Assembly: GCA_902785605.1 (NCBI GenBank)
Contig: CACZZL010000006.1
Coordinates: forward strand, 1-64,000
Reading direction: 5' to 3'
Length of the DNA stretch: 64,000 bases
Source of the DNA: an uncultured Bacteroidales bacterium
GTDB taxonomy: Bacteria; Bacteroidota; Bacteroidia; Bacteroidales; Paludibacteraceae
Position numbers and translations under genes: made by a program. How positions within the stretch are numbered: position 1 is the first letter of the stretch; each line of letters starts with the position of its first letter. Shown in pieces: positions 1-23,090 of this stretch. Below the pieces are notes generated by a model that was not told the origin of the DNA, searched no databases, and saw nothing but the letters and a program-made list of their open reading frames with translations.

Positions 1-138
1 CGTGAGACAATGGAGAAACGGCTGGGACGATCGGTGGTGTCGAAAGAACGTGCATCGGATTATATCCTGCCGGAGCAGCCGAAGAAAGATGTGGAGGAAT
101 TGCCGTTTGAGGATGTGACTGATAATGGCGAAAAGTAA
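1..138 (+). CDS. 3' end of an unrecognised protein (partial)
   Basis: An open frame enters from the left edge and ends at a TAA after 45 codons. The visible tail is charged and contains RETMEKRLGRSVVS followed by an acidic end rich in Glu and Asp. The start lies outside the window. The tail is loosely reminiscent of phage antirepressor-type proteins, but I cannot assign a family. Its GC content looks higher than that of the two genes that follow, so it may belong to a different block of DNA. Confidence 0.5.
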   Translation, partial: RETMEKRLGRSVVSKERASDYILPEQPKKDVEELPFEDVTDNGEK

Positions 139-321
139 CCGTGTGCAAATCGATGCGGTTAGCGGATAATGCGGTATCTGGACGGAGCGAAGAGTGGGGA
201 AGCAAGCATGGCGCAGAGTATTGCTATGCAAGCGGAGATCTTTGGAAAACTATCCCCAATCGGTAGAAGAAACAAAGAATGCTAACGAAGAGTTTTGGAA
301 ACGGTTTAAGTAGGTGGTTAT
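139..321 (+). other. Short gap with a possible gene remnant
   Basis: No full gene is visible. One frame ending at the TAG at 310-312 reads as a plausible protein tail (ENYPQSVEETKNANEEFWKR), but it has no obvious start codon. Another frame in the same stretch gives a short peptide starting at 170. I read this as a possible degraded gene end next to the accessory genes. No promoter matching the Bacteroidota consensus was seen. Confidence 0.3.
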
Positions 322-1176
322 ATGATGGAAGAGAAGAGAATAGGGAATCATAATGGCGACTACTATACAATGGATGAGACGATGGATTCTTTGTATGTGG
401 CTACATTAAAAGATTCTCAATTGATGCAAGATCTTCTACGTTTTCAGGATTTCTATAAGAACGTGGCATATAATTGCTTCTTATTTCTACCAAAAGGAAC
501 CAAAGGCGTATGTAATTACGACTCATATCTATATGAATCATTAGCAGGGACAATATCTTCGATTCACACTATGGTGGAGAAGGGACATTTAAACGATGCT
601 TGCGTTTTATTACGTTTGTATTTCGATAACATATTAACACAGACATATATCCATCTTCTGGCCGAGCAAAAATTTGACGTGTTTACAAATTTCTACGTTA
701 ATGAGATTTGCGAATGGTTGCAAAAAAAGAATAGAATACCGTCGATAAAAAAAGTATTGGCAATGATAGAAACAAGCGACAAAACAAAGACTATCTATTC
801 GCTAGTTAATAAAAATGATAGACTAAAAACAGATAGGGAATTTTTAGATGATTGTGTTCATGGAAATAGGTATCAATATTTTTTATACAATTGCAGTGCT
901 ATATATTTAAAGCATCGGGATGTGTTCTTATCAAAAATTCAAACCGTATTGAATACACTATTTGTGTTACATTTGTCGTTCATATTTTCTTTGACTTCGC
1001 ATTATCTAACATCATCAGATTATAGAGATTGTCTGGAAATGGGAATGACTCCTCCAGAGGGAAGCGAATATTGGATAGCGCCCTTTGCACAAGAAATATT
1101 TGATACTTATATCAAACCTAATAGCGAACTAGCTAATTATCTTTGCTCAATATGTAGTCTTAAGATAACGAGATGA
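322..1176 (+). CDS. Hypothetical 284-aa protein, AT-rich
   Basis: No family was recognised with certainty. The protein is soluble-looking and largely helical, with no signal peptide. A central segment (about residues 80-120) with leucine-rich helices, followed by a DDCVHGNRYQ motif near residue 180, resembles the general layout of HEPN-like or DUF5677-type helical proteins. The canonical RNase spacing RX4-6H is not present. The gene is visibly AT-richer than the core genes, which suggests recent acquisition. It lies about 210 nt upstream of the Avs-like nuclease-NTase gene on the same strand, so a defence role is possible but is inference only. ATG at 322 or 325 could be the start. Confidence 0.6.
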   Translation: MMEEKRIGNHNGDYYTMDETMDSLYVATLKDSQLMQDLLRFQDFYKNVAYNCFLFLPKGTKGVCNYDSYLYESLAGTISSIHTMVEKGHLNDACVLLRLYFDNILTQTYIHLLAEQKFDVFTNFYVNEICEWLQKKNRIPSIKKVLAMIETSDKTKTIYSLVNKNDRLKTDREFLDDCVHGNRYQYFLYNCSAIYLKHRDVFLSKIQTVLNTLFVLHLSFIFSLTSHYLTSSDYRDCLEMGMTPPEGSEYWIAPFAQEIFDTYIKPNSELANYLCSICSLKITR

Positions 1177-1385
1177 AAATTATATAACGTGTAATTACAA
1201 GAAATGTGATATTTAATACTATGTTCAATAATGATGACTGATTTTTCGCTGCTACACGTGGTTTATATCTTTACGTATTAATAATGTGTATAAACTTTGT
1301 GCATTACTGAATTTCGGAATGCTGCGGTTGAATTTTGAGAAATATTTTAAGTAAAGGTTCACTTATAATACTGAAAATGATAGCT

Positions 1386-4300
1386 ATGAAAGAATATCCG
1401 TCATGGAATCTGTTTGCCTATAGATATCCTTCAGAAGAATTGCAGAGAGCGAGGTTTGAAGACCTTGCTCGATGTCTTTTTTGTAAGAGGTATGATATCC
1501 AATATGGACTATACCAGTGCATCAACCATGCTGGAAATGAAACGGATGTTATTGAAAGGGATGGGGACATTATCGGTTTTCAGGCGAAATATTTTAAGAA
1601 ACAAATAGATAAAGCCCAAATTATCACATCGCTAAAAACGGCTAAAGAGAATAATCCGAATCAAACAAAAGTAATCATCTATACTAACCTTTCTTTTGGC
1701 AACTCCACTAAAAACGGTGCTACTAAAACAGCCAAACAATCAGCAATAGAGAATGATGCGGCAACAATAGGTTTGAGCATAGAATGGGCGACTGATAAGA
1801 TGATTTTAGATCAGGCTGCTCAATGCGATTGGATTCGTGATATCTTCTTTTCGGTAGATTCGGACTATGAATTGTTGTATGAATTCGAAAAGAAAAATAC
1901 GGAACATATTCTCAATCCCATCGGTACAGTAATTACATTTCGCGACAAGGAGATTAAAATAAGTAGGGACAAAGTTTTATCGCAGTTATATGATGGCATT
2001 ATCAATAACTCTCATTTTGTTTTGCATGGAGAAGGTGGCTGTGGCAAAACCGCCATCATAAAGGATCTGACAGATATAATGCGAGCAAACAATATTCCTG
2101 TTTGTATTCGAAAGGCACAATCGCTGAATGTTACCAAAGTTGATGATATCTTTCATGCGCAGAAGAATTATACTCTGGAGCAGTTTAATACGCTATATAG
2201 CAGCGCATCTCATAAGGTGTTTGTAATTGATTCTGCCGAGCGATTACAGGAAATTGATGATCAGGAACCTGTATTCAATCTGCTAAAGAGTTTGTCGAAT
2301 GATGGTTGGAGTATCCTGTTTACAGTAAGGGATGTGTACTATCAGGATTTGTGCGATGATCTACTATCCGTCTATCACATTGCACATAATGCGATTGCGA
2401 TTGATATCATAGGCGAAGATGAGTTAAAACAGTATGAACAGGAACTAAACTTCAGTTTGCCCAAGAATGCAGATTTCAGATTACGGCTTTGCAATTTGTT
2501 TTACCTCAAATATTATCTACAATACTATGAGAAAACATCTCAAGAGGATTCTTATCCGGCTTTTGTCAACTATATCTGGAGAGAAAAAATCTCAGGTAAA
2601 TCTACTTGTAATGGCATAAATATTGAACGGAACAAATGCTTTCTTCAGATCGTTAATGACAGGATGAACCATAATGAGTTCTTTTTAGACGAATCCAATT
2701 ATGATGCAAGAGCTCTACAGGCATTGTTAGCAGACGAAATTGTCGGAAGAACGGAAAATGGGATATTTATTACCCACGATATCTATGAGGAGTGGGGAGC
2801 CTGTCGGATTATCGAAAGAGAATGGAATAGAAGGAAAGGCATTCAAACATTTTTTCAAAACATAGGCAGTTCTTATGTGGTGAGACGTACATTCCGGCAA
2901 TGGCTGGTTGAGAAACTGAATGGAAATCCTGTACATGAGTCGCAGGAAATACTTGATGCTGTATCTAATAATTCGATTTTACCTGTTTGGAGGGACGAAA
3001 TAATCGTCTCCATTTTGCTGTCATCATATAGTGAAACTTTTTTCAATCAATCATCAGAACAACTACTCAAGGATGAGGCTCAGATGCTAACGCGGGTGGC
3101 ATATCTATTATTGATAGCGTGTAAACGAATCACCCGAGTGGTGAAATTGCAAGAATATGACTATCCGTTGTATGCTCCTGAAGGACCTGGATGGGAGTAC
3201 ATGATTCGCTTCATTTATGCGCATAGAGAGGAAACTTTGAAATGTCCATATCGGGTGCGAATCTTGAAGGAATGGTGTCAATACAATCAAAAAGGAGAGA
3301 CAACCAGATATGCTGGATTATTGGTCCTCGAAATGATGAAGGAGATAGAAAATGATTTGCATCATTTGTATTTAAGCAATCATGACCAAGAAGAGTTGTA
3401 TCAGATTTTATCGAACGCAGCATCTGAAGTGCAAACGGAATTGTCATCGTTGCTTGAGACGATAACAGAAAACCAATGGCGTGATTCAGATGATCCGTAT
3501 TATGATTTTTCCACTTATCTGCTTACGCAGAGTCATAATGTTGCGAAAATAATCTGTTTGTTTCCTCATGCGATCCTGGACATAGCTTCGATGATTTGGA
3601 TAAATGAAGCAGATAGTTATGATGAGTATGAAGAGCATTATGGACTAGAGTGTGAACCTAGATTCGGAATCCGAGAACAATATAGTAATAAAAATTATTC
3701 TCCGGAAGGGGCAATGCAGACGCCAATCTATCTGCTCTTATGTGCCGATCCGGTAGAAGCGATTCGGTATGTTGTCCGGTTTGTTAATCATTGCGTTGAT
3801 TTTTATGCCAAGCACCCGTATTCGGATTCGGCTGATGAAGTGAAACAGATAGAATTACATCTTCAAGATGGCACTACTATACAACAATGGGGTTCTATAT
3901 GCTTATGGGGAATGTATCGTGGAGCCATTCATTACACCATGCCGGACTTGCTGCAATCTGTACATATGGCACTTGAGAAATTTCTGCTGGATGCCGTAAC
4001 GGATCAACCGACATGGGTTGAACCCATGATGGATTATATCTTGCGGGATAGCAGAACGGTGTCACTAACGGCTGTGGTATCAAGTGTGGTGATGGCTTAT
4101 CCGGAGCGATACTATAAATACGCTTTGGTGTTGTTTGATACATTGGAGCTCTTTCATTATGATTCCGTTCGTTTGCAAGATGAGTCTCACCATCGATGGC
4201 ACATCAATATGGGAGCGATGATGAATAAAGAGGTGGCTGAGGAACGGCTTAAATCAGGTGAGTTAGCGCATCGAAAAGAATCATTAGAAAGCATATGTGT

Positions 4301-5918
4301 CCGTTATCAATATGTGCGGACGCAAGAGTTGTCGGAAGAGGATAGCGAAGAACTTGTCAACCAGATTCACCGAATTTTGGATAAGCATTGGGATACTGTC
4401 AAGAAAAGCACGAACGTATATAAAGATACCAAAGAGATTCTACTTTATAGACTTGATCGAAGGACACATAAGCCTAAAATTGTTGAGGGTGGCGCAGAGA
4501 ATCAAGTAATGTTTGAATTGTGTCCGCAGATGCCGGATGATTTGAAACAGAGGAGTGAAGATCGCATAGCAAGGGTGAGCGCGTCTATGCGTTTCTCGTC
4601 GCTTCATGTGTGGGCGTTTAAAAAGTTACGTCATGAGGATGTGGCCCAATATCCGCAGTATGAAAATGCGGCGAATGTAATGGATTCACTTCGAGACTTG
4701 TTGAACGCATTGCAAATCGGTGAGGAGTTAATGCCGATGGATGAATGGATTCCGTTTTCCGTAGCAGGTATGTTAATCCGTGATTTTTATGAGCAACTGG
4801 CCGATGAGGATAAGGATTTGTGTATTCAACTTATTAATGAAAAATTATCAGAAGGTGTTTCTGCATCATACCATCCTCAGATTGACGATGGGGTAGAGTG
4901 TTGCGTTCATGCGCTACCGCAGTTGATTTTGCACGACAATGAACAGGCTGATGCCTATTGGCAAGTATTATTGAGCATGTTGTTCAACAAGATTCCGTTA
5001 GGAGAATACAAACGAATGTGTGATTATGCGTTAGAAGCCATTTATGAAGGCCAATTATGGCAGCTCGCAAATGAGCAAATGCATCGGCTGCTCGATGATT
5101 ACATCGCGCATTTCGGGACAATTGATAAAATCGCAAATTTAGAAGACGCCGAGATATTGTTGGAGCTGATTCCGTTCGATACGAATGATTCACGTCTTGA
5201 AGATGTCGTATCGCAGTTAATACCATTTGTGGGGAAGGCTCTTTTGGACGAATGGAATAAACAATACTATAGATCAAATCATTTGTACGATGCTTATGCT
5301 CAATTTGTGTTGCATCGTCCTTTAGAAAAGATAGACGATTTTATTAATCCTCTATTGCCCTCTATACAGTCCCATAAGGAATTGCAATATTTTCTGTTCT
5401 CCTTTATTCATACTGAAGACAAATATGAGCAAAAAGATGCCTTCTGGCGTATCTGGAAACTGTTGTATCCCAAAGTTACATCGCGTTCGTTTGGCTATGC
5501 TGATGAAGTAATAACGGTATATCTGCTTGTTCACCCGTGGGCTCTGTACGAACGGACAAACTGGCATAGTTTTGCGATGCAAAATGCATGGATATATGCG
5601 AATACGGCTCGCGATATAGGGCAAGTTCCGTGTGTGTTATACTCTATTGCAAAGGCGATGAATGGACTAGTTAAAAACAATCTTCGAGAAGCAACAGATT
5701 GGGTATATACAATTGTTAAAGCGCATGAGGACTTGAATATGGGGGAATTAAGATCCACTACTGTTTTTTATCTTGAACAAGCATTAAGCGGATATATTAA
5801 AACCAATAAGAAGTTCATTAGACAGCATAATCCTTTGCGGGAAAAACTATTGGCTATTTTGACATTTATGGCCGAACGCGAGTCTATCATGGCATATCGG
5901 CTTCGTGAAAGGTTGTGA
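1386..5918 (+). CDS. Avs-like antiviral STAND NTPase with N-terminal nuclease
   Basis: A protein of about 1510 aa. Residues 1-150 look like a PD-(D/E)XK (Mrr/Cap4-type) nuclease: a conserved Glu in the FEDLARCLFC helix, an ETD around 52-54 and the core GFQAK around 64-68. A P-loop NTPase follows, with Walker A GEGGCGKT at 215-222 and Walker B VFVIDSAE around Asp282. The remaining roughly 1100 residues are helical, repeat-like and without recognised motifs, as in the target-sensing region of STAND proteins. This order matches the Avs (AVAST) family, closest in plan to Avs4. Those proteins are known to bind phage terminase or portal proteins, oligomerise and cleave DNA. The start could be TTG 1335, ATG 1377 or ATG 1386. 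I chose 1386 because MKEYPSWNLF begins the conserved-looking part. The specific family is inferred. Confidence 0.75.
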   Translation: MKEYPSWNLFAYRYPSEELQRARFEDLARCLFCKRYDIQYGLYQCINHAGNETDVIERDGDIIGFQAKYFKKQIDKAQIITSLKTAKENNPNQTKVIIYTNLSFGNSTKNGATKTAKQSAIENDAATIGLSIEWATDKMILDQAAQCDWIRDIFFSVDSDYELLYEFEKKNTEHILNPIGTVITFRDKEIKISRDKVLSQLYDGIINNSHFVLHGEGGCGKTAIIKDLTDIMRANNIPVCIRKAQSLNVTKVDDIFHAQKNYTLEQFNTLYSSASHKVFVIDSAERLQEIDDQEPVFNLLKSLSNDGWSILFTVRDVYYQDLCDDLLSVYHIAHNAIAIDIIGEDELKQYEQELNFSLPKNADFRLRLCNLFYLKYYLQYYEKTSQEDSYPAFVNYIWREKISGKSTCNGINIERNKCFLQIVNDRMNHNEFFLDESNYDARALQALLADEIVGRTENGIFITHDIYEEWGACRIIEREWNRRKGIQTFFQNIGSSYVVRRTFRQWLVEKLNGNPVHESQEILDAVSNNSILPVWRDEIIVSILLSSYSETFFNQSSEQLLKDEAQMLTRVAYLLLIACKRITRVVKLQEYDYPLYAPEGPGWEYMIRFIYAHREETLKCPYRVRILKEWCQYNQKGETTRYAGLLVLEMMKEIENDLHHLYLSNHDQEELYQILSNAASEVQTELSSLLETITENQWRDSDDPYYDFSTYLLTQSHNVAKIICLFPHAILDIASMIWINEADSYDEYEEHYGLECEPRFGIREQYSNKNYSPEGAMQTPIYLLLCADPVEAIRYVVRFVNHCVDFYAKHPYSDSADEVKQIELHLQDGTTIQQWGSICLWGMYRGAIHYTMPDLLQSVHMALEKFLLDAVTDQPTWVEPMMDYILRDSRTVSLTAVVSSVVMAYPERYYKYALVLFDTLELFHYDSVRLQDESHHRWHINMGAMMNKEVAEERLKSGELAHRKESLESICVRYQYVRTQELSEEDSEELVNQIHRILDKHWDTVKKSTNVYKDTKEILLYRLDRRTHKPKIVEGGAENQVMFELCPQMPDDLKQRSEDRIARVSASMRFSSLHVWAFKKLRHEDVAQYPQYENAANVMDSLRDLLNALQIGEELMPMDEWIPFSVAGMLIRDFYEQLADEDKDLCIQLINEKLSEGVSASYHPQIDDGVECCVHALPQLILHDNEQADAYWQVLLSMLFNKIPLGEYKRMCDYALEAIYEGQLWQLANEQMHRLLDDYIAHFGTIDKIANLEDAEILLELIPFDTNDSRLEDVVSQLIPFVGKALLDEWNKQYYRSNHLYDAYAQFVLHRPLEKIDDFINPLLPSIQSHKELQYFLFSFIHTEDKYEQKDAFWRIWKLLYPKVTSRSFGYADEVITVYLLVHPWALYERTNWHSFAMQNAWIYANTARDIGQVPCVLYSIAKAMNGLVKNNLREATDWVYTIVKAHEDLNMGELRSTTVFYLEQALSGYIKTNKKFIRQHNPLREKLLAILTFMAERESIMAYRLRERL

Positions 5919-5942
5919 TTTTTGATAAAAGTAACCAAATTA

Positions 5943-5974
5943 TTTGTTTATTCGCAAAAATTTCTGTACCTTTG
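5943..5974 (+). promoter_or_regulatory. Promoter for the small ORF / RhuM remnants
   Basis: TTTG at 5943-5946 and TACCTTTG at 5967-5974 are separated by 20 nt, matching the Bacteroidota -33/-7 pair. A five-codon mini-ORF (5997-6014) lies between the promoter and the first gene. Its stop overlaps the ATG at 6011. Confidence 0.7.
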
Positions 5975-6010
5975 CATACAATTTAAAGGTAGAAATATGA
6001 ACTTGATTAT

Positions 6011-6211
6011 ATGACAACACCGACAAATAGCATACAAGGCATATTGATTTCGTGTAGGGATGTTCAGTACGTTGGCAAGCGTATTGATGAAATACGCGCA
6101 TGGGAAAAATCGCATCATGCGTCTAACATGCAGGAGGAGATCAAGTTGACCAAAGCATACTGTCGAAAAATCATTGATATGCTGGATGATTGTTTTGAAA
6201 AGAGAGAATAA
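6011..6211 (+). CDS. Small hypothetical protein (66 aa)
   Basis: A small, charged, probably helical protein with no signal or membrane segment and no recognised family. Support for it being real: a good promoter sits directly upstream, the start overlaps the stop of a mini-ORF, and it ends only 5 nt before the first RhuM fragment. That position suggests it was the first gene of an operon whose later gene has decayed. Function is unknown. Confidence 0.5.
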   Translation: MTTPTNSIQGILISCRDVQYVGKRIDEIRAWEKSHHASNMQEEIKLTKAYCRKIIDMLDDCFEKRE

Positions 6212-6216
6212 GCGAT

Positions 6217-6468
6217 ATGGTTAACAACGAGAGCAATATCATCATTTATAACACAATCGACGGAAAGGCGAGTGTGGTGCTATATGCGCGGGATGGGAGC
6301 GTGTGGATGAACCAGAATCAACTTGCGGAACTTTTTGACACCTCTAAGCAAGGTATAGGTCAGCATATTGCTAACATGCTGAACGAGAGTGAATTAGATG
6401 CAAATTCAGTTGTAAAGGATTATTTGACAACTGCCGTGGATGGAAGAGGCATACGAATTGTAGCATAG
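6217..6468 (+). pseudogene. RhuM-family N-terminal fragment (copy 1)
   Basis: The 83-aa product has the start of a RhuM (virulence protein RhuM) domain. It shows the VWMNQNQLAELFDTSKQGIGQHI helix-turn-helix-like segment in pieces (SVWMNQNQLAELF, then SKQGIGQHIAN), followed by SELDANSVVKDYLTT. Full-length RhuM proteins continue for about 250 further residues through a YYNLD...GYRV...FRQWA core. Here the frame closes after TTAVDGRG. A second RhuM N-terminus begins 14 nt later, so this is a truncated relic. RhuM family function is not well established. Confidence 0.75.
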
Positions 6469-6481
6469 AAGAAAACACGAT

Positions 6482-7277
6482 ATGGAACAGGAATTGCAGT
6501 TTTTGTTGTATGATCTGCCGGACGATAGTGCGAAAGTACAAGTAGTCGTTCGGGATGAGACTGTATGGATGACCCAAAAAGCCATGGGTGTGCTGTTTGG
6601 GGTTCAGGCTCCGGCAATCAGTAAGCATCTGAAGAATATCTTCGAAAGCGGAGAACTGAATCCAGAAGTGGTTATTTCCAAAATGGAAACTACCACTCAA
6701 CATGGCGCTATAGCAGGGAAAACGCAGACAAGTGAGACAAACTTTTACAACTTGGATGCCATTATATCCGTGGGTTATCGTGTGAACTCGACCAAAGCGA
6801 CGCGGTTCCGGCAATGGGCAGCGTTTGCAAACTCCTCGATACACGAACTCAAGCACAGCTTGGTTAAAGGTACTCGGAGTTGCTACGCTTTCCCCACTGC
6901 AAACAGCCAAAGGCTTAGTTTACATTGGGGGCCCCAGGTGATAGAGTATTGTACGGCTAAAGCAGCTTAGGAATAGGCAACAGATAACGGACATATACGC
7001 GGAGTGCAGTATCGACTACGATCCGAAAGCGTTGACGACCAAGGAGTTCTACGCGATGGTGCAGAACAAGTTCCACTACGCGATAACGGGACGTACGGCA
7101 GCCGAGATCATCTATCACAGCGCTGACCATACGCAGGAACATATGGGGTTGACGACATGGAAGAACTCACCGGAGGGACGGAGCAACTATCCGAAATTTT
7201 CGAATAGTTCAAATGGAAGGTGTCGGCACGTGGCGCGTGAGGTGAAGTTTGATAAGATAAGTTTGCAGCAAGATTGA
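6482..7277 (+). pseudogene. RhuM-family gene, disrupted (copy 2)
   Basis: The first 113 codons are a good RhuM N-terminus with TVWMTQKAMGVLFGV, FYNLDAIISVGYRV and FRQWA. After about 6821 similarity is lost and the frame runs into an unrelated tail ending at 6970. RhuM-like sequence resumes in another frame from about 6951 (RQQITDIYAECSIDYDP, then FHYAITGRTAAEIIY and MGLTTWK) and is lost again before the stop at 7277. The conserved segment between FRQWA and ITDIY and the normal C-terminus are missing. It was a separate RhuM gene or a duplicate of copy 1 and is now non-functional. Confidence 0.8.
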
Positions 7278-7392
7278 GAAATGTCGATTGCCAATTGACA
7301 GAATGCGAAGAAGAATGTTTGAATTAGAGAAACTGCGTTTAGATGACAAAAAATGAAAATATGCAAGCAAATTTAATTTTTTTCATCAAAAA

Positions 7393-7424
7393 CTTGCATA
7401 TATAAAAAAAATATACTACTTTTG
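7393..7424 (+). promoter_or_regulatory. Promoter of the HTH-nucleotidyltransferase-phosphoesterase unit
   Basis: CTTG (7393-7396, within CTTGCATATAT) and TACTTTTG (7417-7424) are spaced by 20 nt. A four-codon mini-ORF at 7449-7463 precedes the ATG at 7468. Confidence 0.75.
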
Positions 7425-7467
7425 CGGCGGATTTGCAATTTATAATTGATGCGTGAGAAATAGCAAA

Positions 7468-8421
7468 ATGGATGTTAACGTACAAAATATCAGTAATTAC
7501 ATCGAGAAGATGGTAGGTGCAGAAGTGCAGATTGAGCCTTTAGATAAGGCTAAAAAGCAAGCACTACCGGTTCTGATTACGAATGCCTATCAGTTGCTGC
7601 AATGTCAGTTGCTGGGTGCGGAGGTGAGTCTGATGGTTTGCAAGGATGCCAATGCGACACCGATGCAACTGAAAAAGCATTGTGCGATAGTAGAAAGGGC
7701 ATTGGAGATGCATGCTGCTGTGGTGCTGCCGGAAGTGAAGCCGTACAACATGAAGCGGTTGGTGGATGCACGAGTGAACACGATTGTTCCGGGACGTCAG
7801 TTGTTCCTGCCTTCGCTGCTGATGGATCTGCGCGTACAACGTAATCCGGTGGATATGGTAGGCAAACCGATGCCGGTGATGGCACAAGTGGTTGTGCTTT
7901 GCCATCTGCAGAAACAGAATCTGAACGGGATGTCGGCTCAGCCTATTGCGGAGTTGATGGGTGTATCCTATCCGAACATCAACCGCGCAGTGAAATGGTT
8001 GGCAGACAATCGGTTTGTAGAGTTGAGTCCAGGCCGTGAGAAGCAGATGCAGTTCATCCATGAAGGTAAGGAACTATGGGAGCAAGCGTTGTCGGTGCTG
8101 CAGAGTCCGATTGAGCGTGTGCTACGAACGGATCGAATGTTGGATGCGTATATTTGCGGAGAGGAGGCGTTGGCTGAGTTGACGATGTTGGCAGAACCGC
8201 AGGAACGGCATTGGGCCATTACGAAACAGGAAGCGCAACAGTTGGGTGCGGAGTTGCACAAGGAGTTTGGTGAGCATGTGGTGGAGGTTTGGCGCTATAA
8301 TCCGAAGTTGATGGGAGAGAACGGGATGGTGGATAGGCTGTCGTTGTATTTGTCGCTACGGGACACAGAGGATGAGCGGGTAAGGAAAGAGGTAAAAGGA
8401 TTGGTAATTGGTAAATGGTAA
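7468..8421 (+). CDS. Winged-helix regulator / AbiEi-like antitoxin
   Basis: A soluble protein of 317 aa. A MarR/winged-helix DNA-binding segment lies in the middle (about 165-205): MSAQPIAELMGVSYPNI, then AVKWLADNRFVEL. The C-terminal part ends in VDRLSLYLSLRDTEDERV, a pattern I associate with regulators paired with AbiEii-type nucleotidyltransferases. Its 3' end overlaps the nucleotidyltransferase start by 7 nt, which fits an antitoxin-toxin pair under one promoter. GTG 7453 is possible, but ATG 7468 is preferred. The last codons and the next start lie in a short repeat (GGTAATTGGTAAATGGTAATT). The antitoxin role is inferred from gene order and family resemblance. Confidence 0.65.
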   Translation: MDVNVQNISNYIEKMVGAEVQIEPLDKAKKQALPVLITNAYQLLQCQLLGAEVSLMVCKDANATPMQLKKHCAIVERALEMHAAVVLPEVKPYNMKRLVDARVNTIVPGRQLFLPSLLMDLRVQRNPVDMVGKPMPVMAQVVVLCHLQKQNLNGMSAQPIAELMGVSYPNINRAVKWLADNRFVELSPGREKQMQFIHEGKELWEQALSVLQSPIERVLRTDRMLDAYICGEEALAELTMLAEPQERHWAITKQEAQQLGAELHKEFGEHVVEVWRYNPKLMGENGMVDRLSLYLSLRDTEDERVRKEVKGLVIGKW

Positions 8422-8427
8422 TTAGTG
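8402..8427 (+). repeat. Short-period repeat at the HTH/nucleotidyltransferase junction
   Basis: GGTAATTGGTAAATGGTAATT-type units cover the last codons of the regulator and the first codons of the nucleotidyltransferase. It is one of the dispersed tracts described in the findings. Confidence 0.6.
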
Positions 8428-9194
8428 ATATGATAACGGGATTGGAATTGTTTAAGGAGCGGTTTGCGGCATATGCGGACAGTTATGTGCTAATCGGAGG
8501 TGCGGCATGTTATGTGCATGAAGAGGCGGGTGCTCAGATGCCACGTGCCACAAAGGATCTGGATGTAGTGCTGGTGGTAGAGGCGTTGTCAGCTGATTTT
8601 GTGCGTGAGTTTTGGCAGTTTGTGCGTGAAGGAGGCTATGAACGTCGTCAACGAAGCGCTGACAAACATGAGTGTTTCCGCTTCCTTAAACCGCAAGACA
8701 AGCGTTATCCGAAGCAAATTGAGTTGTTTGCACGTGCCATAGGGGTGCTGCATATCCCTGACGATGCTCATTTGGAGCCTATACCGGCAGAGGATGAGTT
8801 GTCAAGTCTGTCGGCAATATTGATGAACGAGAGTTATTATCGTTTTACGATAGCGCATAGTCGGTTGGAGGACGGATTGCATGTGGCAAATGCGGAGGCG
8901 CTGATATGTCTGAAGGCGAAGGCGTACAATGATTTGCGTGCACGGAAAGAGCAAGGAGGCGATGTGGATTCGGATGATATAGAGAAGCATAAGAAAGATG
9001 TGTTCCGGTTGGCACCGATGCTGACGGAAGGAGCACGATATGCGTTGCCGGAGGAGATGGAGGCTGATATGCGGGAGTTTGTGGCGAGAGTGGCTGAGGA
9101 GTTGCCGAATGAGGATTTTCTGCGTGCAGCCGGACTTGGTGCGCAACGTGTGGAAGGATTGCTAGATGTGCTGAAAAGAGCGTATTTGGAATGA
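8415..9194 (+). CDS. AbiEii-type nucleotidyltransferase (putative toxin)
   Basis: A 259-aa protein with the start of a polymerase-beta-like nucleotidyltransferase fold. YVLIGGAACYV (GG at residues 28-29) is followed by RATKDLDVVL with the metal-binding Asp pair at 48 and 50. A helix with SSLSAILMNESYY and a later HLKALK-type segment (EALICLKAKAYNDLRARK) match the family pattern. Enzymes of this group in AbiE-like systems transfer nucleotides, reportedly to tRNA for some members, and stop growth or phage. The substrate here is unknown. It overlaps the regulator upstream (7 nt) and the phosphoesterase downstream (4 nt). ATG 8415 or 8430 could be the start. Confidence 0.75.
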   Translation: MVISDMITGLELFKERFAAYADSYVLIGGAACYVHEEAGAQMPRATKDLDVVLVVEALSADFVREFWQFVREGGYERRQRSADKHECFRFLKPQDKRYPKQIELFARAIGVLHIPDDAHLEPIPAEDELSSLSAILMNESYYRFTIAHSRLEDGLHVANAEALICLKAKAYNDLRARKEQGGDVDSDDIEKHKKDVFRLAPMLTEGARYALPEEMEADMREFVARVAEELPNEDFLRAAGLGAQRVEGLLDVLKRAYLE

Positions 9195-9985
9195 AGCCGT
9201 GGGTGCTGACATATAAGGATGCGAAATCGCTGGTGATATGCGGGGACATACATGGGGAGTTTGTACCGTTGGTTTATGAGATGTGTGTGCGATACGGAAT
9301 GCGGGATACGCTGGTGATTGTGGCCGGAGATTGCGGATTCGGGTTTGAAAAGCCGGGTGCGTATGATCAGGTGTTTCGGCGTATCGAGAAGCGTCTGACG
9401 CAGAACAACTGCTGGATAGCGATGGTGCGTGGTAATCATGACGACCCTGCGTATTTTGCGACGGATACGGCAGGACATACGGCTGTGGAGCACTTGCGTT
9501 GGAGGACAGTGCCGGACTATGCGGTGATTGAGGCTTGCGGACGAACGGTGCTGTGTGTCGGAGGTGCTGTGAGTGTGGATCGGCAGATTCGTTTGCAAGA
9601 GATGAGTCGGCATCCGGGGAAGGTGTATTACTGGCCGGATGAAGCAGTTCGGTATGATGCTCCGGCACTGGAGGCGATACGGGATGCCGGACTGAAAGTG
9701 GATATCGTGGTGAGTCATACGGCTCCGTCGTTCTGTGAGTTTCAGTCGAAAAGCGGATTGGCGAGTTGGGCAAAGGATGATCCGGGATTGATTGCGGAAT
9801 GTGAGGCAGAACGGCAGACGATGGATGCGATTTTGGCACATCTGAAGCGAGATGGACATCCGTTGGAGCGGTGGTACTATGGACATTTTCATAACTCGTG
9901 GCATAGCGAGATAGATGGTGTGTGGTACAAGATGCTGGATATTATGGAGTTGCTGGAGGTGCCGAGGATAAAAGAAGAAAATTAA
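9191..9985 (+). CDS. Calcineurin-like metallophosphoesterase
   Basis: A 264-aa soluble enzyme with the full metallophosphoesterase motif set: GDIHGE (18-23), GDCGFGF, GNHDD, SHTAP and GHFH. These ligands bind two metal ions and hydrolyse phosphoesters. The start overlaps the nucleotidyltransferase stop by 4 nt (ATGA), so the two are probably translationally coupled. A phosphoesterase that could reverse or regulate nucleotide transfer beside a nucleotidyltransferase is suggestive, but the substrate cannot be read from the sequence. wecB follows after only 7 nt and might share the transcript. Confidence 0.85.
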   Translation: MKPWVLTYKDAKSLVICGDIHGEFVPLVYEMCVRYGMRDTLVIVAGDCGFGFEKPGAYDQVFRRIEKRLTQNNCWIAMVRGNHDDPAYFATDTAGHTAVEHLRWRTVPDYAVIEACGRTVLCVGGAVSVDRQIRLQEMSRHPGKVYYWPDEAVRYDAPALEAIRDAGLKVDIVVSHTAPSFCEFQSKSGLASWAKDDPGLIAECEAERQTMDAILAHLKRDGHPLERWYYGHFHNSWHSEIDGVWYKMLDIMELLEVPRIKEEN

Positions 9986-9992
9986 ATAGAAT

Positions 9993-11207
9993 ATGAAAAT
10001 AACATTGATTGCAGGTGCGCGACCCAATTTTATGAAGGTGGCACCGATTATTAAGGCGATTAAGGCGCATAACGAGGGGTTACCGGTTACGGGTGACGGG
10101 TTACGGGATGCAAACAAGCGGATCGAGTATCGCTTGGTGCATACAGGGCAGCACTATGACAAGAACATGAGTGACACGTTCTTTGAGGAGTTGGGCATTC
10201 CGGCTCCGAACGTGAACCTCGGTTGTGGTGGTGGTTCGCAAGCGGAACAAACGGCTGCTATCATGGTGGCGTTTGAGAAGGAACTCATGGCGCATCCGGC
10301 CGATGTGGTGCTGGTTGTGGGCGATGTGACAAGCACGATGGCTTGCTCGATTGTGGCGAAGAAACTGAACACGAAAGTGTGCCATGTGGAGGCAGGAATA
10401 CGAAGCTGGGACTTGACGATGCCGGAGGAAATCAACCGCATGGTGACGGACAGTTTGGCGGATTATATGTTTACCACATCAGACGTTGCTAATCGAAATT
10501 TAATTCGGCAGGGAGCCGAATTGGTTACGGGTTACGGGTTACAGGTTACGGGAGAGCGCATTCTGCCCGAAGACAAGTATGCGAACCAGCGTGTGCAGCA
10601 ACGGGTTTGGCATGTGGGGAATGTGATGATAGATACGCTGTTGGCGAACAGAGCACGGTTCAGGAAGCCTGATGTGTGGGACGAGTTGGGGCTAAAGCCT
10701 CAGGAGTTTGTGGTGATGACGATGCACCGTCCGGCTAATGTGGACGAGGAGAACCATCTGCGTGCCATGATGGAGCAAATCATTGATAATGTGCATAATT
10801 TGCCGGTGATCTTCCCGATACATCCCCGTACAGCCAAGTTGTTCTACGGACTCTGGGGCGATGAGGCTGAATTGGCAAAACGGCTGCCAAACCTCCATAT
10901 CGTTGAGCCGATGGGATACTTAGAGTTCAATTATCTGGTGGAACGCGCGAAAGCAGTGGTGACTGACAGCGGTGGTATTACCGAAGAGACGACGGTGATG
11001 GGTGTACCGTGTATCACCTTGCGCGACAATACCGAACGTCCGGAGACGTGTACCGTAGGGACAAATGAACTCATCGGCACGAATCCTGCGGCTATCAAAC
11101 CGGCATTGGACAAGCTGTTTGCCGGAGAGTGGAAGAAAGGTGCGATTCCGGAACTCTGGGATGGGCACACGGCTGAGCGAATCATCGCGATTCTCGCAGA
11201 TCTGTGA
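9993..11207 (+). CDS. wecB: UDP-N-acetylglucosamine 2-epimerase (non-hydrolysing)
   Basis: A 404-aa cytosolic enzyme interconverting UDP-GlcNAc and UDP-ManNAc for surface polysaccharide synthesis. Family motifs are visible: AGARPNFMK at the N-terminus, HTGQHYD, GDVTSTMA, VEAGIRS, PEEINR, MHRPANVD and DSGGITEE. It is slightly longer than typical members (about 370-380 aa). The excess is explained by two short in-frame tracts of GGTTAC-type repeats (10077-10109 and 10523-10552) that encode VTGDGLRD and VTGYGLQVTG in surface-loop positions. It ends at a strong terminator shared with glyQS. Confidence 0.93.
   Translation: MKITLIAGARPNFMKVAPIIKAIKAHNEGLPVTGDGLRDANKRIEYRLVHTGQHYDKNMSDTFFEELGIPAPNVNLGCGGGSQAEQTAAIMVAFEKELMAHPADVVLVVGDVTSTMACSIVAKKLNTKVCHVEAGIRSWDLTMPEEINRMVTDSLADYMFTTSDVANRNLIRQGAELVTGYGLQVTGERILPEDKYANQRVQQRVWHVGNVMIDTLLANRARFRKPDVWDELGLKPQEFVVMTMHRPANVDEENHLRAMMEQIIDNVHNLPVIFPIHPRTAKLFYGLWGDEAELAKRLPNLHIVEPMGYLEFNYLVERAKAVVTDSGGITEETTVMGVPCITLRDNTERPETCTVGTNELIGTNPAAIKPALDKLFAGEWKKGAIPELWDGHTAERIIAILADL
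10077..10109 (+). repeat. GGTTACGGG-type repeat inside wecB (first)
   Basis: Degenerate units of GGTTAC(C/G)GG lie in frame near codons 29-39 and code for LPVTGDGLRD. They fall just before the conserved HTGQHYD region, in a position where epimerases vary in length. Confidence 0.7.
10523..10552 (+). repeat. GGTTACGGG-type repeat inside wecB (second)
   Basis: Four near-identical units of GGTTACGG/GGTTACAG encode VTGYGLQVTG at about codons 177-187, between the conserved NLIRQG and WHVGN segments. Confidence 0.75.
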
Positions 11208-11214
11208 TATGTGT

Positions 11215-11252
11215 AAAAAAACCAACGTACCTTTTGGCACGTTGGTTTTTTT
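11215..11252. terminator. Bidirectional terminator between wecB and glyQS
   Basis: An inverted repeat AACCAACGT(A)CC / GG(C)ACGTTGGTT with a TTTT loop is flanked by an A-run on the left and a T-run on the right. It can therefore end transcripts from both convergent genes. Confidence 0.85.
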
Positions 11253-11267
11253 CATTTACCCATTCAC

Positions 11268-12839
11268 TCACTCGTTTGTGTCCTCGAAGGAGTCACCGAC
11301 GATTTTGCGGTAGAGTTCCTTCGGATCGGTAGCTTTGCGGATGATCTCGTGCAGGTCCTCGATCTTAACACGATCCTGGGTCATGGTGTCACGGTAACGA
11401 ACAGTGACGCAACCATCTTTCTCGGTATCGTGGTCAACGGTGATACAGAACGGTGTTCCGACTGCGTCTTGACGACGGTAACGCTTACCGATGGAGTCTT
11501 TCTCGTCGTACGCTACCTTGAAGTCGAACTTGAGTTCGTTCATGATCTCGCGGGCTTTCTCCGGCAGTCCGTCTTTCTTAACGAGCGGCATGATACAAGC
11601 CTTCACCGGAGCCAGTACGGCCGGAAGGTGCAGAACGACACGCGTGTCGCCGCCTTCAAGTTGTTGCTCTTCGTATGCCGAACACATGACGGAGAGGAAC
11701 ATACGATCCACACCGATGGATGTCTCGATGACGTACGGGGTGTAGGATTGGTTGAGCTCCGGATCGAAGTACTCGATCTTCTTTCCGCTGTATTTAGCGT
11801 GGCTGCTCAGGTCGAAGTTGGTACGGCTGTGGATACCCTCCACCTCCTTGAAGCCAAACGGCATGAGGAACTCGATGTCGGTAGCGGCATTGGCATAGTG
11901 TGCCAATTTGTCATGATCGTGGAAACGATATTTCTCGTCACCGAGACCCAGCGCTTTGTGCCATTTGAGACGGAATTGCTTCCAGTGCTCAAACCACTTG
12001 AGTTCCTCACCCGGGCGAACGAAGAACTGCATCTCCATTTGTTCGAACTCACGCATACGGAAGATGAACTGACGCGCTACGATCTCGTTACGGAACGCCT
12101 TACCGATCTGTGCGATACCGAACGGAATCTTCATACGGCCGGTTTTCTGGACGTTAAGGAAGTTGACAAAGATACCCTGTGCGGTTTCCGGACGGAGGTA
12201 GATCTTCATCGCACCGTCAGCGGTGGAGCCCATTTCGGTGGAGAACATGAGGTTGAACTGACGTACGTCTGTCCAGTTACGTGTACCGCTGATGGGGCAA
12301 ACGATCTCCTCGTCGAGGATGATCTGCTTGAGTTCGTCGAGGTTGTTATCGTTCATTGCCTTGGCAAAACGCTCGTGCAGCGCTTCGCGTTTAGCGATAT
12401 GCTCTTTGACACGCTCGTTGGTGGCTTTGAACATCTCTTCGTCAAAGCTCTCGCCGAAACGTTTGCGTGCTTTCTCAACCTCTTTGGCGATTTTCTCGTC
12501 GTACTTGGCAATCTGATCTTCGATCAGTACATCTGCGCGGTAACGTTTCTTGGAGTCGCGGTTATCAATCAACGGATCGTTGAACGCGTCCACGTGACCG
12601 GATGCTTTCCAGGTCGTCGGGTGCATGAAAATAGCGGCATCGATACCGACGATGTTCTCATGCAGCAGCGTCATCGAATCCCACCAATAACGCTTGATGT
12701 TGTTCTTCAACTCGACACCGTTCTGACCATAGTCATACACAGCGCCCAGACCATCGTAGATCTCGCTGGACGGGAAAACAAATCCGTACTCCTTGCAATG
12801 CGCTACGATTTTTTTGAATGTTTCTTCTTGTGTTGCCAT
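11268..12839 (-). CDS. glyQS: Glycine--tRNA ligase (class II, single chain)
   Basis: A 523-aa homodimer-type glycyl-tRNA synthetase that charges tRNA-Gly in the cytosol. Visible features are the N-terminal FPSSEIYDG...YDYGQNGVELK, the class II motif 2 region FRNEIVARQFIFRMREFEQMEMQ in pieces, the RPETAQGIF segment and the C-terminal anticodon-binding domain starting near LPAVLAPVK. Length and motif order are normal. Its promoter lies at 12915-12946. The leader between contains a CATTTACCAT-type repeat tract. A 511-aa open frame on the opposite strand is a shadow of this gene. Confidence 0.96.
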   Translation of the reverse strand: MATQEETFKKIVAHCKEYGFVFPSSEIYDGLGAVYDYGQNGVELKNNIKRYWWDSMTLLHENIVGIDAAIFMHPTTWKASGHVDAFNDPLIDNRDSKKRYRADVLIEDQIAKYDEKIAKEVEKARKRFGESFDEEMFKATNERVKEHIAKREALHERFAKAMNDNNLDELKQIILDEEIVCPISGTRNWTDVRQFNLMFSTEMGSTADGAMKIYLRPETAQGIFVNFLNVQKTGRMKIPFGIAQIGKAFRNEIVARQFIFRMREFEQMEMQFFVRPGEELKWFEHWKQFRLKWHKALGLGDEKYRFHDHDKLAHYANAATDIEFLMPFGFKEVEGIHSRTNFDLSSHAKYSGKKIEYFDPELNQSYTPYVIETSIGVDRMFLSVMCSAYEEQQLEGGDTRVVLHLPAVLAPVKACIMPLVKKDGLPEKAREIMNELKFDFKVAYDEKDSIGKRYRRQDAVGTPFCITVDHDTEKDGCVTVRYRDTMTQDRVKIEDLHEIIRKATDPKELYRKIVGDSFEDTNE

Positions 12840-12847
12840 AAAAACTA

Positions 12848-12899
12848 TTTACAATTTAATCATTTACCATGTACCATTTATTGAACCATTTAGTCATTG
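12848..12899. repeat. CATTTACCATGTACCATT repeat in the glyQS leader
   Basis: Repeated CATTTA/ACCATT units sit between the glyQS start and its promoter, so they would lie in the 5' untranslated region of the mRNA. They belong to the dispersed short-period tracts. Confidence 0.6.
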
Positions 12900-12914
12900 G
12901 GTCAATTTTGCCTG

Positions 12915-12946
12915 CAAAATTACTGCTTTTTTTTGATATATGCAAG
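12915..12946 (-). promoter_or_regulatory. glyQS promoter
   Basis: On the minus strand TTGCATATATC is followed, after an A-rich spacer, by TAATTTTG. This is the Bacteroidota -33/-7 pair with the extended -33 box common in this window. Confidence 0.8.
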
Positions 12947-12993
12947 AGTTTGGCATAATTATTGCACATATTTTTCTATAAATTGGAAGAATT

Positions 12994-14742
12994 ATGCGAA
13001 AAATTGTCTCTGTATTAGTAGCATTGATGTGCATAGGAGCTGCAAGCGCATGTATGAAGAAAAGCGTTCCGTCAGTGGTTGGAGATCAGCCGCTCACCGT
13101 GATCGTGATGGATACGACGCAAGCATTGCTGCCGGAAGCGCAAGTGAAAATAGGTGAACAGAGTTTTACCACCTCTTTTGATGGCCGTATTGTGTTAGAA
13201 CCCGAGCAAATCAAGGGTGTAAGCACGATTGTCATCAGTTGCGAAGGCTATGAGAGTCGCAAGGTGCGTCCGGAGGCATCTCCGCTGATTGTGCGTTTGA
13301 CACCTAAACGTGTGAAGGAGAGTAGGGTTAGCGGCAGTGGCAAGGACCGGATGCTTACCGGTGGCCGTCCTGTACGCACCGAAGCGCTTTACTCCTATGC
13401 CAAGACATCGGCTGTTATGGTTGAGGACGAAGCGGTTTTGGCAGAAGCAGCTGATCATATAGTGGTTGGATACGGAGGAGTCGTCAATCAGGTCTCTGCC
13501 GGTAAACTGACAGCCGGAGAAGTGAACGATTTTACGAAGTGGTACTTCTGGCCGACGGTGCTTGATAGCACGCATAAGGCGTTTATCCAGACCTGGGGCA
13601 TCGCGCCTCGTCATCGGTACACGGTGCAGGTGAAGAACCAAGCCGGTTATCCTGTTGTCAATTATCCGGTTAACCTGACGGACCAACAAGGTAATACCCT
13701 ATTCCAAGCCATGACGGATAATACCGGTAAAGCGGAGCTGTGGAATGGGTTACGGGTTACCGGTTACGGGGTACAGGTTAACGGTGAATGGAAAGAGGGG
13801 TTGAATACGATGGTGGTGGATGAACCGTGTGACGCTCCGGAAGGAGTAGATGTGGTGTTCGTGTTCGACGCGACGGGTTCGATGGGTGATGAGTTGCACT
13901 ATCTGCAAGCGGAGATGAAAGATGTGATCGCTCGTGCCAAAGATGCGACCGGAGGTTTGGCTATCCGTACCGGTGCTGTCGTTTATCGTGATCACGGAGA
14001 TGAGTACCTCACCCGTATCTCGCGTTTGACGGATGACATCAGCATCACGCAGTCGTTTATCGACAAGCAGCAAGCGTCTGGTGGAGGTGATTTTCCGGAG
14101 GCTGTTCCCGAGGCATTGATGGCAGCTCTGAACAGCGTCGGATGGGATGCTGAGGCGCGTGCACGCATTGTGTTCCTTATCTTGGACGCGCCTTGTCATA
14201 GCGATTCGGCTACGGTTGCCCTGCTGCATGAGCAAGTGTTCAATGCCGCTGCGCAAGGAGTGCGTATTGTCCCCGTTGTCTGCAGCGGATTGGACAAGAG
14301 CGGCGAGTATCTGATGCGCGCTATCGCATTGGCTACCAACGGCACGTCCTTTTTCCTTACCGATGACTCGGGAATCGGACATGCGCATCTCAAACCGACA
14401 ACCGACAGCCTTCAAGTGGAGCACCTGAACGATATGCTCGTGCGAACGATTGTAGAGTTCAGTACGATGCCCGGTTGTGAGAATGAAGAGATGAGCGAAC
14501 TAGCGAATGAAGGGTTGAACGAGGATTTTATTCCGAATCCGTTTGACGCTAACGATCTGCAGAATGATCCTTCTATCCCGCATGGTCCCGGTGTGCACTA
14601 CCTGTTGGATGTGTCCGGCAAACTGCTTGGGATCTACGAGGGGGAGATAGAGGATGTGCGGACAGATGGCCTGCCGAGAGGTATCTATTTCATCAAGACA
14701 TATAGTAACGGACAGTGGTTTACTAAAAAGATATTGGTATGA
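12994..14742 (+). CDS. VWA-domain lipoprotein with T9SS-like C-terminal domain
   Basis: A 582-aa exported protein. Residues 1-20 form a signal ending in GAASAC, a lipobox-like site with Cys20. A CarbopepD-like beta segment (about 30-110) follows. The von Willebrand A domain (about 285-490) has the metal-site motif as DATGS, with Thr where Ser is usual (DxSxS). The last 40 residues (LPRGIYFIKTYSNGQ, then KKILV) match the type A C-terminal sorting domain of the type IX secretion system. A GGTTACGGG repeat at 13747-13784 encodes RVTGYGVQVNG just before the VWA domain. It overlaps the hydrolase downstream by 4 nt. The role is unknown; adhesion or protein binding at the surface is likely. Confidence 0.8.
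   Translation: MRKIVSVLVALMCIGAASACMKKSVPSVVGDQPLTVIVMDTTQALLPEAQVKIGEQSFTTSFDGRIVLEPEQIKGVSTIVISCEGYESRKVRPEASPLIVRLTPKRVKESRVSGSGKDRMLTGGRPVRTEALYSYAKTSAVMVEDEAVLAEAADHIVVGYGGVVNQVSAGKLTAGEVNDFTKWYFWPTVLDSTHKAFIQTWGIAPRHRYTVQVKNQAGYPVVNYPVNLTDQQGNTLFQAMTDNTGKAELWNGLRVTGYGVQVNGEWKEGLNTMVVDEPCDAPEGVDVVFVFDATGSMGDELHYLQAEMKDVIARAKDATGGLAIRTGAVVYRDHGDEYLTRISRLTDDISITQSFIDKQQASGGGDFPEAVPEALMAALNSVGWDAEARARIVFLILDAPCHSDSATVALLHEQVFNAAAQGVRIVPVVCSGLDKSGEYLMRAIALATNGTSFFLTDDSGIGHAHLKPTTDSLQVEHLNDMLVRTIVEFSTMPGCENEEMSELANEGLNEDFIPNPFDANDLQNDPSIPHGPGVHYLLDVSGKLLGIYEGEIEDVRTDGLPRGIYFIKTYSNGQWFTKKILV
13747..13784 (+). repeat. GGTTACGGG-type repeat in the VWA lipoprotein gene
   Basis: Units of GGTTACGGG / GGTTACCGG / GGTACAGG lie in frame and encode LRVTGYGVQVNG. 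This is almost the same peptide as the second wecB tract (VTGYGLQVTG), although the host proteins are unrelated. Confidence 0.75.
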
Positions 14743-15818
14743 GAAAATCCATATTCATTCTATCGTTATGCGCCTTGTGCTTGAGCCTTCCGCTTTCTGC
14801 GGAGGTGCTGGAGCGCGGGGTGTTGTATCGTTCGGTGGATCAGCACGGTGATTCGCTGACAGTCTCCGGACGACTGATGGTGCCACAGGACAGCACGCCC
14901 AAGGGCATTATGCTGATTCCGCATTACACTATTTTTTGCAATGACGAAGCTCCTTCGAACAACCCTACGCACGATGCGAAGGTGTTCCGGGATGATTACG
15001 TGGTCCTGCAACCGGATTACGTGGGTTACGGAGTGACGGTGGCTCGTACGCATCCGTACTTATACGGTGAACTGGCAGCACGTAACACCGTCGATCTGTA
15101 TCTGGCAATGCTGCCGGTACTGGACAGTATGGCGCTGGGTATCCCGCTGGATAGTGTGTATATACTCGGTTACTCGCAAGGTGGTGCGACTGCGCTGTGG
15201 ACGCTCAAACTGATTGAGGAGCAATACGCAGACCGGATTCATGTGAAACGCTGCTTTGCTGGAGGTGGGCCGTATGACGTAGCGGCAACCTTCGACGAGT
15301 CATCCCTCTCGCTCCAATACGCCATGCCGATGATTATTCCTATTCTGGTGATGGGTACTTCCGCTTCGTATGATCTGGATCTGGAGCAGGATTATTTCTT
15401 CACTCCTGCGCTGCAACGTGCGTATGCCAAGTGGATTGAACCGAAGAACACCAAGCCGCTGGATATCTATTTTCGGATGCCGGTTCATCTGCGCAGTCAT
15501 TGGTTAACACCGCAAGCGATGGACAAGACGCTGCCGCAGACACAACGTTTTTACGCGGGGTTGTTGCGCTCCAGTCTGGTGCATTATCCGGTGTTGGAGA
15601 ACGATACGGACAGTATCATCCCGACATGGAAACCCCAGGCACCGCTTTATATCTTCCATTCTACCAACGATGATGTCGTCACCGTCCGTTGCTCGCAACA
15701 CCTGCAGCGCTGCTATGGAGACCAACCGAACATCATCTGGGATTTTGGCCGATATGGTCATCATATACAAGCTGTACGCGTGTATGTGGACCATGTAATG
15801 CAGCTTTTGGAAGAATAA
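14739..15818 (+). CDS. Secreted alpha/beta hydrolase
   Basis: A 359-aa protein with a signal peptide (about 1-21) and an alpha/beta-hydrolase fold. The nucleophile elbow is GYSQGG (about residue 147), a likely acid is in HSTNDDVV and a late His in GRYGHH. The lid segments resemble secretory lipase or prolyl-oligopeptidase-like esterases. The start overlaps the VWA lipoprotein stop by 4 nt, so the two probably form one unit. The substrate is unknown. Confidence 0.8.
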   Translation: MRKSIFILSLCALCLSLPLSAEVLERGVLYRSVDQHGDSLTVSGRLMVPQDSTPKGIMLIPHYTIFCNDEAPSNNPTHDAKVFRDDYVVLQPDYVGYGVTVARTHPYLYGELAARNTVDLYLAMLPVLDSMALGIPLDSVYILGYSQGGATALWTLKLIEEQYADRIHVKRCFAGGGPYDVAATFDESSLSLQYAMPMIIPILVMGTSASYDLDLEQDYFFTPALQRAYAKWIEPKNTKPLDIYFRMPVHLRSHWLTPQAMDKTLPQTQRFYAGLLRSSLVHYPVLENDTDSIIPTWKPQAPLYIFHSTNDDVVTVRCSQHLQRCYGDQPNIIWDFGRYGHHIQAVRVYVDHVMQLLEE

Positions 15819-15829
15819 TTGCACATTTA

Positions 15830-15861
15830 TTTGCACAATTCAAAATTTTTTCGTACCTTTG
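15830..15861 (+). promoter_or_regulatory. Promoter of the small membrane protein / OmpH unit
   Basis: TTTG (15830-15833) and TACCTTTG (15854-15861) with a 20-nt gap, 26 nt before the next start. Confidence 0.8.
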
Positions 15862-15887
15862 CAGCCGAAATGCAGTCGAAATAGTTT

Positions 15888-16118
15888 ATGCGTATATCTG
15901 TGTGGATTATAATAGGGATTACAGTAGGGCTGTTGCTCCTGGCAATGGTGCTTCTTTGTGTGGGTGTTATCCTGCGCAAAGATCATTCGTTCCGCTCGCA
16001 GCATATCAGCGAAAACAAGCGGATGAAGGAGGATAAGATTCATTGCGCTAAGGCTCAGGACCGCGAAGCGCAACGAGCGAATACAAAGAAAATAGATGTA
16101 AAAAATATAGATTTATGA
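15888..16118 (+). CDS. Small conserved membrane protein
   Basis: A 76-aa protein with one N-terminal membrane helix (about residues 5-28) and a basic tail. The tail contains HISENKRMKEDKIHC and AQDREAQR, a pattern I recall from small uncharacterised Bacteroidota membrane proteins (HIxxNKxMRxxxIxC...QDxxAR). It has its own promoter, and its stop overlaps the OmpH-like start (TTATGA), so the two are probably co-translated. Function is unknown. Confidence 0.75.
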   Translation: MRISVWIIIGITVGLLLLAMVLLCVGVILRKDHSFRSQHISENKRMKEDKIHCAKAQDREAQRANTKKIDVKNIDL

Positions 16119-16756: not shown

Positions 16757-16759
16757 AGA

Positions 16760-19485: not shown

Positions 19486-19488
19486 TTC

Positions 19489-21200: not shown

Positions 21201-21220
21201 ATTTGAACAATTTTGCGGTG

Positions 21221-21253
21221 CAAAATTACTGTTTTTTTTTGATATATGCAAAT
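21221..21253 (-). promoter_or_regulatory. cdsA promoter
   Basis: On the minus strand TTTGCATATATC and TAATTTTG flank an A-tract spacer. It diverges from the acyl-CoA ligase promoter about 50 nt away. Confidence 0.8.
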
Positions 21254-21301
21254 AAAATAAGCAAAAAAAATACGGCAAATAGTAAAATAAAACAAGTTTT
21301 A

Positions 21302-21333
21302 TTTGCACATGTCAAAAAAATGTAGTATCTTTG
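21302..21333 (+). promoter_or_regulatory. Promoter of the acyl-CoA ligase / coaX unit
   Basis: TTTGCACATGTC starts at 21302 and TATCTTTG lies at 21326-21333, with a 20-nt gap. A leader of about 60 nt separates it from the start at 21402. Confidence 0.8.
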
Positions 21334-23078: not shown

Positions 23079-23090
23079 TAGCTGACAGCT

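Follow-up and report, generated by a model that had tools for sequence, protein, structure and literature searches.

Domain Organization of the Gene

The DNA under study, referred to in the following as the window, is a stretch of 64,000 nucleotides from an uncultured Bacteroidales bacterium of the family Paludibacteraceae (contig CACZZL010000006.1, positions 1 to 64,000, forward strand). The window starts at the first base of the contig, and close to that end lies a gene at 1386..5918, a single open frame of 1510 codons without an internal stop. An earlier note, made from the letters alone, had read it as an Avs-like nuclease–STAND protein, closest to Avs4, in an accessory island, with a divergent sensor that could recognize an unknown target. 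Its closest relative, L007, comes from another genome (RUG505, an uncultured Bacteroidales; genome G897 has the same protein) and aligns with it without a gap over 1510 codons, at 81% protein identity. The gene and its parts, with the basis of each placement in brackets, are as follows:

1386..5918, forward strand: Avs4-type gene, 1510 amino acids, likely ATG start (open frame, profile matches, start by comparison with L007)
1386..1865, forward strand: N-terminal nuclease region, residues 1–160, with E52...Q66-x-K68 (alignment with seven distinct relatives; model)
1539..1541, forward strand: codon of E52, proposed metal-binding acid, a putative role (alignment)
1581..1589, forward strand: codons of Q66-A67-K68, proposed QxK site, a putative role (alignment)
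2028..2051, forward strand: Walker A, GEGGCGKT, residues 215–222 (motif in alignment; Pfam NACHT)
2217..2240, forward strand: Walker B, VFVIDSAE, residues 278–285 (motif in alignment)
2766..2795, forward strand: FITHDIYEEW, residues 461–470, probable winged-helix part of the STAND module
2823..5915, forward strand: helical sensor region, residues 480–1510 (predicted mostly helix)
5102..5103, forward strand: junction of sensor residues 1239 and 1240, at which E. coli Avs4 carries 52 additional residues (its 1257–1308)

The protein is almost certainly made up of three parts: the nuclease (residues 1–160), a STAND nucleoside triphosphatase (NTPase, residues ≈161–480) and a sensor of ≈1030 residues (480–1510), which is predicted to be mostly helical, much as the earlier note's count of more than 1000 helical residues had it. 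An alternative in-frame start, a TTG at 1335, lies upstream of the ATG at 1386; the ATG is the likelier start, because the match to L007 begins at that methionine and the preceding residues are unmatched. The ratio of nonsynonymous to synonymous substitutions (dN/dS) between the window gene and L007 is 0.092 for the whole gene and 0.08–0.12 in each of seven regions, all of these values being rough at a dS of about 1.2. This comparison indicates that selection on the gene is purifying.

The nuclease region is presumably of the PD-(D/E)xK type. Seven distinct relatives have this domain (L007, L008, L009, L038, L052, L053 and L060), and both E52 and K68 are kept in all of them, while Q66 is kept in six and is E in L008. 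The three residues align with the site of E. coli Avs4, and we propose that they form the predicted nuclease site of the Avs4 kind. The QxK-type core that had been claimed for the protein is thus present, with the correction that it reads E...QxK and not D/E-x-K. At E up to 0.01, Pfam gave no family for residues 1–160, and none for the corresponding region of E. coli Avs4 either.

In the NTPase, the Walker A and B motifs stand as previously noted, and D282 and E285 of Walker B are kept in 10 of 10 alignment rows, nine of them distinct. The Pfam scan of the protein returned generic P-loop families only; the best, NACHT (PF05729), scored 25.7 bits over residues 211–325, short of the gathering score of 26.7. 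Despite this score, the NTPase probably works like a NACHT module, since its predicted fold agrees with the NACHT modules of nucleotide-binding leucine-rich repeat receptors (NLRs). The FITHDIYEEW stretch is unchanged in one six-row alignment and partly altered in L052 and L060. Ten single positions compared across the aligned relatives were kept, except for Q66 (E in L008), T222 (S in L060) and R315 (Q in L052). One relative, L039, has no nuclease domain in the alignment.

Two circumstances might suggest a decaying or inactive Avs4 copy: the gene is close to the beginning of the contig and has short RhuM-like frames beside it, and a broken relative with one stop (L011) exists in another member of the order. 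Against this stand the uninterrupted frame, the presence of the motifs and the low dN/dS across all seven regions, and we regard decay as very improbable.

Assignment to the Avs4 Type

The PADLOC Avs4 model, PDLC02169, matched the protein with 1191.1 bits (E 0; the search does not display the threshold of this model). No other Avs model appeared in PADLOC at E up to 1, and the next listed model, mad8, was far behind (E 0.027). When the protein was compared by phmmer with 177,635 distinct PDB sequences, a single one was found at E up to 0.01: 8dgf_A (E 7e-188), which matched in two stretches, window residues 5–1207 and 1207–1509. This entry is a structure of E. coli Avs4 in complex with the phage PhiV-1 portal, and the sequence occurs in four of its chains, in keeping with a tetramer. 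The gap-free match to L007 at 81% identity, the dN/dS of 0.09 and the PADLOC and PDB matches together exclude a chance frame.

The predicted structures lead to the same family. Foldseek placed 8dgf first for residues 1–520 (E 7.9e-36; next entry 1.9e-08), aligned over residues 3–520, and again for residues 480–1510 (E 6.3e-37, TMq 0.54; next entry 4.5e-06); a Foldseek search had been called for by the earlier note. The sequence and model comparisons thus support an Avs4-type protein along its whole length, sensor included.

The plan might also be shared by a STAND protein from a different family (Avs1, Avs2, Avs3, Avs5 or bNACHT), and the generic P-loop families from Pfam, with NACHT best and under its cut-off, would fit such a protein. 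The PADLOC ranking and the first place of 8dgf by both sequence and fold contradict it within the libraries searched, and we consider it extremely improbable. Avs5 and the eukaryotic NLRs (NLRP, NLRC4) are only 9–15% identical to the window protein in structural matches. They have a different effector and sensor.

The NCBIfam Avs4 model, NF041815, gave 1379.5 bits, below its equivalog cut-off of 1500. L007 (1392.6) is also under this value, and five other Avs4-type proteins score 1868–2072. Because the cut-off was missed, we call the protein Avs4-type rather than an Avs4 equivalog. With this restriction, the view of the gene as a divergent Avs4-type receptor, intact and mostly following the known plan, largely holds.

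Compared with E. coli Avs4 (8dgf; plasmid copies include WP_000240574.1 in L038), the window protein has the same domain order, E...QxK site, Walker motifs, single-gene form and predicted fold of both halves, with homology over the whole length. It differs in being from another host phylum, in its identity of 27–32% by domain, and in having a sensor 52 residues shorter and one loop in the nuclease part 17 residues shorter. The canonical Avs4 proteins L008 and L009, from the window's order, and L065 and L066, from its family, share the architecture, but their sensors are longer and they are 28–38% identical to the window protein by domain.

Distribution and Phylogeny of Relatives

Full-length matches were found in 3 of 178 genomes of the same genus: the window's own, G897 and G817, which carries L060. 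In the family, five of 358 genomes matched at 1e-20, these three together with G1007 and G1008, and in the order 6 of 393 matched at E below 1e-40, fragments included. The phylum sample yielded three of 395: the window's own genome, G262 and G182, the last two at 23–28% identity in matches that begin past the nuclease. Of 72,556 plasmid records, 39 matched, all below 60% identity; 32 of the 39 are from Escherichia. Of 50,697 phage records, none matched.

In phylogenetic trees, the window protein, L007 and L060 stood apart from the others. The ultrafast bootstrap value was 100 in the nuclease tree of nine proteins; in two trees of the remaining sequence, with 13 and 15 proteins, it was 92 and 82, respectively. 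L059 was omitted as identical to L007, L005 and L017 were left out as short or weak, and L012 was used in the nuclease tree only. L060 is 39% identical to the window protein in the nuclease and 24–26% outside it. Since two of the three values lie below 95, the branches are long and the identity of L060 is low, the grouping of these three proteins apart from other Avs4-type proteins is likely, though not sure.

Proposed Mechanism and the Sensor

PMC12931631 describes Avs1–4 as sensing terminase, portal or Ksap1 and then cleaving phage and host genomes. By comparison with E. coli Avs4, the window protein would be inactive at rest. Resting Avs4 is a monomer, and ATP binding and tetramerization come after portal binding. 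During infection, the helical region of the window protein would wrap newly made, unassembled phage portal protein; once ATP had bound and the tetramer had formed, the nuclease domains would be brought together and cut cell and phage DNA, stopping the infection by sacrificing the cell. The ligands would be the portals of Bacteroidales phages. An antiphage role is highly probable, and a one-gene receptor of the Avs4 type that senses portal is the explanation we favor as probable. The portal as ligand, which by analogy also seems probable, is its weakest step.

As a whole, the sensor does not appear specially divergent. The nuclease is 27% identical to that of E. coli Avs4, the NTPase 32% and the sensor 28%. 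In comparison with six canonical Avs4 proteins, the sensor is 28–33% identical, close to the nuclease (26–33%, in the five that have it) and 2–7 points below the NTPase (31–36%). Of the residues invariant in canonical relatives (eight for NTPase and sensor, seven for the nuclease), the window protein keeps 19/26 in the nuclease, 49/57 in the NTPase and 96/127 in the sensor. On these figures, the sensor as a whole has not drifted apart from the other domains.

Several observations weigh against a one-gene, portal-sensing receptor of the Avs4 type. The NF041815 cut-off is missed by the window protein and passed by five of the six other Avs4-type proteins, the sixth being L007. The predicted models were built on four sequences, with predicted local distance difference test values of 72 and 69, and the root-mean-square deviation to 8dgf over the whole length exceeds 20 Å. 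The sensor keeps a smaller share of the canonical invariant residues than the NTPase does (76% versus 86%; Fisher p 0.12), and this share is lowest past residue 1225 (12 of 19). Residues 1211–1360 are 73% identical to L007, compared with 79–85% in other regions. Moreover, the window protein, L007 and L060 are missing 40–50 sensor residues. In the literature searched, no report of activity was found for a member of this short-sensor branch.

The missing stretch was located between two conserved sensor columns, which are 34 residues apart in the window protein and L007, 36 in L060 and 76–86 in ten others (L008, L009, L038, L039, L052, L053, L065 and L066, and the more distant L002 and L003). For L011 and L013 there is no count, since the pieces used do not include the stretch. 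The corresponding E. coli Avs4 residues, 1257–1308, are absent from the window protein and present in eight aligned canonical members; they are not a known defining feature of the family. Because the longer form also occurs in the more distant relatives, a loss is the simplest explanation of the short one.

This raises the alternative of an Avs4-type receptor with a changed ligand or epitope, in which the short-sensor branch recognizes either a different phage protein or a different face of the portal. The length difference would fit it, as would the low L007 identity of the short part, its dN of 0.17 (0.09–0.11 elsewhere), its few canonical invariant residues and the position of the window protein and L007 under the Avs4 cut-off. 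Within the Avs group, Avs5 also appears to respond to different ligands, according to PMC12931631. On the other side, whole-sensor identity to the canonical proteins is near that of the nuclease, 96 of 127 invariant residues are kept, and in residues 1211–1360 dS is also at its highest and dN/dS is 0.08, with no sign of positive selection. We think such a change unlikely, if worth considering. In its narrower form, that the window protein, L007 and L060 make up a branch of their own in which the loss of 40–50 residues shifted recognition to a different phage protein, or to a Bacteroidales-phage portal type unseen by canonical Avs4, it is slightly less likely still.

Portal sensing, by analogy, thus remains the likely reading, and a shifted ligand a possible one. 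The divergent sensor of the earlier note is not borne out overall; it holds around residues 1141–1360, where the 40–50 residues are missing and identity to L007 is lowest. The unknown target it suggested is possible. The short-sensor branch is a new point.

Genomic Setting

The G+C content is 36–43% over positions 1–7500 and 45–53% over 7501–24000. This low value, together with the defence-type genes around L007, agrees with the accessory setting proposed before. The protein encoded upstream of the Avs4-type gene has 284 residues and matches DUF5677 weakly, below the cut-off; downstream follow short RhuM-like frames, an overlapping pair of frames at 7453–9194, a phosphoesterase and a wecB-type UDP-GlcNAc 2-epimerase. 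The short frames, at 6217–7277, include two of RhuM type (both PADLOC PDC-S05/S23), with 54.6 bits for Pfam Virulence_RhuM in the frame at 6482–6970, and look like the remains of at least one gene. In the overlapping pair, the first frame has weak winged-helix matches, and the pattern of the second presumably recalls AbiEii-type nucleotidyltransferases, although no AbiEii-type family was matched in the Pfam scan or in PADLOC; the two are possibly a toxin–antitoxin pair.

L007 lies on the same side of a homologous epimerase gene (84% identical). Its surroundings are a defence-rich stretch (L007:18–5842 and 11432–15211) with PADLOC matches to RADAR RdrB, RmrA, SNF2-type helicases, DNA methylases and SpbK-type TIR proteins, and with a PIN-type match. 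None of these flanking genes matched the scanned neighbors in the window. The gene thus occurs with defence-type genes, while its immediate neighbors change.

Runs of a 7-base unit, GGTTACG, occur inside coding frames at 10078–10106, 10523–10551, 13748–13776 and 16784–16805, two of them in the epimerase gene. Allowing up to two mismatches, the window contains 11 matches, compared with a mean of 0.05 in shuffles. The genome holds 33 exact 15-mers, compared with 0 for the reversed control. Stretches of this type are common to several genomes of the genus.

Relatives with Other Arrangements

The Calothrix plasmid protein L039 (L039:3137–8272) is 74–83% identical in NTPase and sensor to L065 and L066, with 79.8% DNA identity to L065 over 4247 bases. 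Unlike in the nuclease-bearing L065 and L066, no nuclease was found in or just before it. At its N-terminus is a 22-residue stretch (..RNINT.GGNY.ERI.GDY.QG), which has a counterpart of 77% identity in the adjacent upstream gene; these paired motifs recall bacterial amyloid signalling motifs. L039 looks like a cross-phylum transfer with a swap of effector; mis-binning is possible, as L065 fills a contig just 5202 bases long.

In another genome of the window's phylum, a trypsin-like protease match (L002:832–1540; Pfam Trypsin_2 31 bits, cut-off 27.6) precedes an NTPase and sensor related to Avs4 at 23–28% identity. L013 resembles this arrangement, as judged by eye only. A further Avs4-type gene (L053:7986–12698) lies in a provirus contig near genes that resemble, also by eye only, the terminase, portal and capsid genes of a P2-like phage; with a portal sensor in such a place, one may ask what keeps it from triggering itself.

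Implications

If the window protein works like E. coli Avs4, portal sensing would extend to a lineage of the Bacteroidales. Its sensor, at about 28% identity, would then be a test of which residues read the portal, and those kept universally would be candidates for the recognition core. If, instead, the short-sensor branch reads another ligand, it would show a class of receptors changing its ligand by the loss of a small piece.

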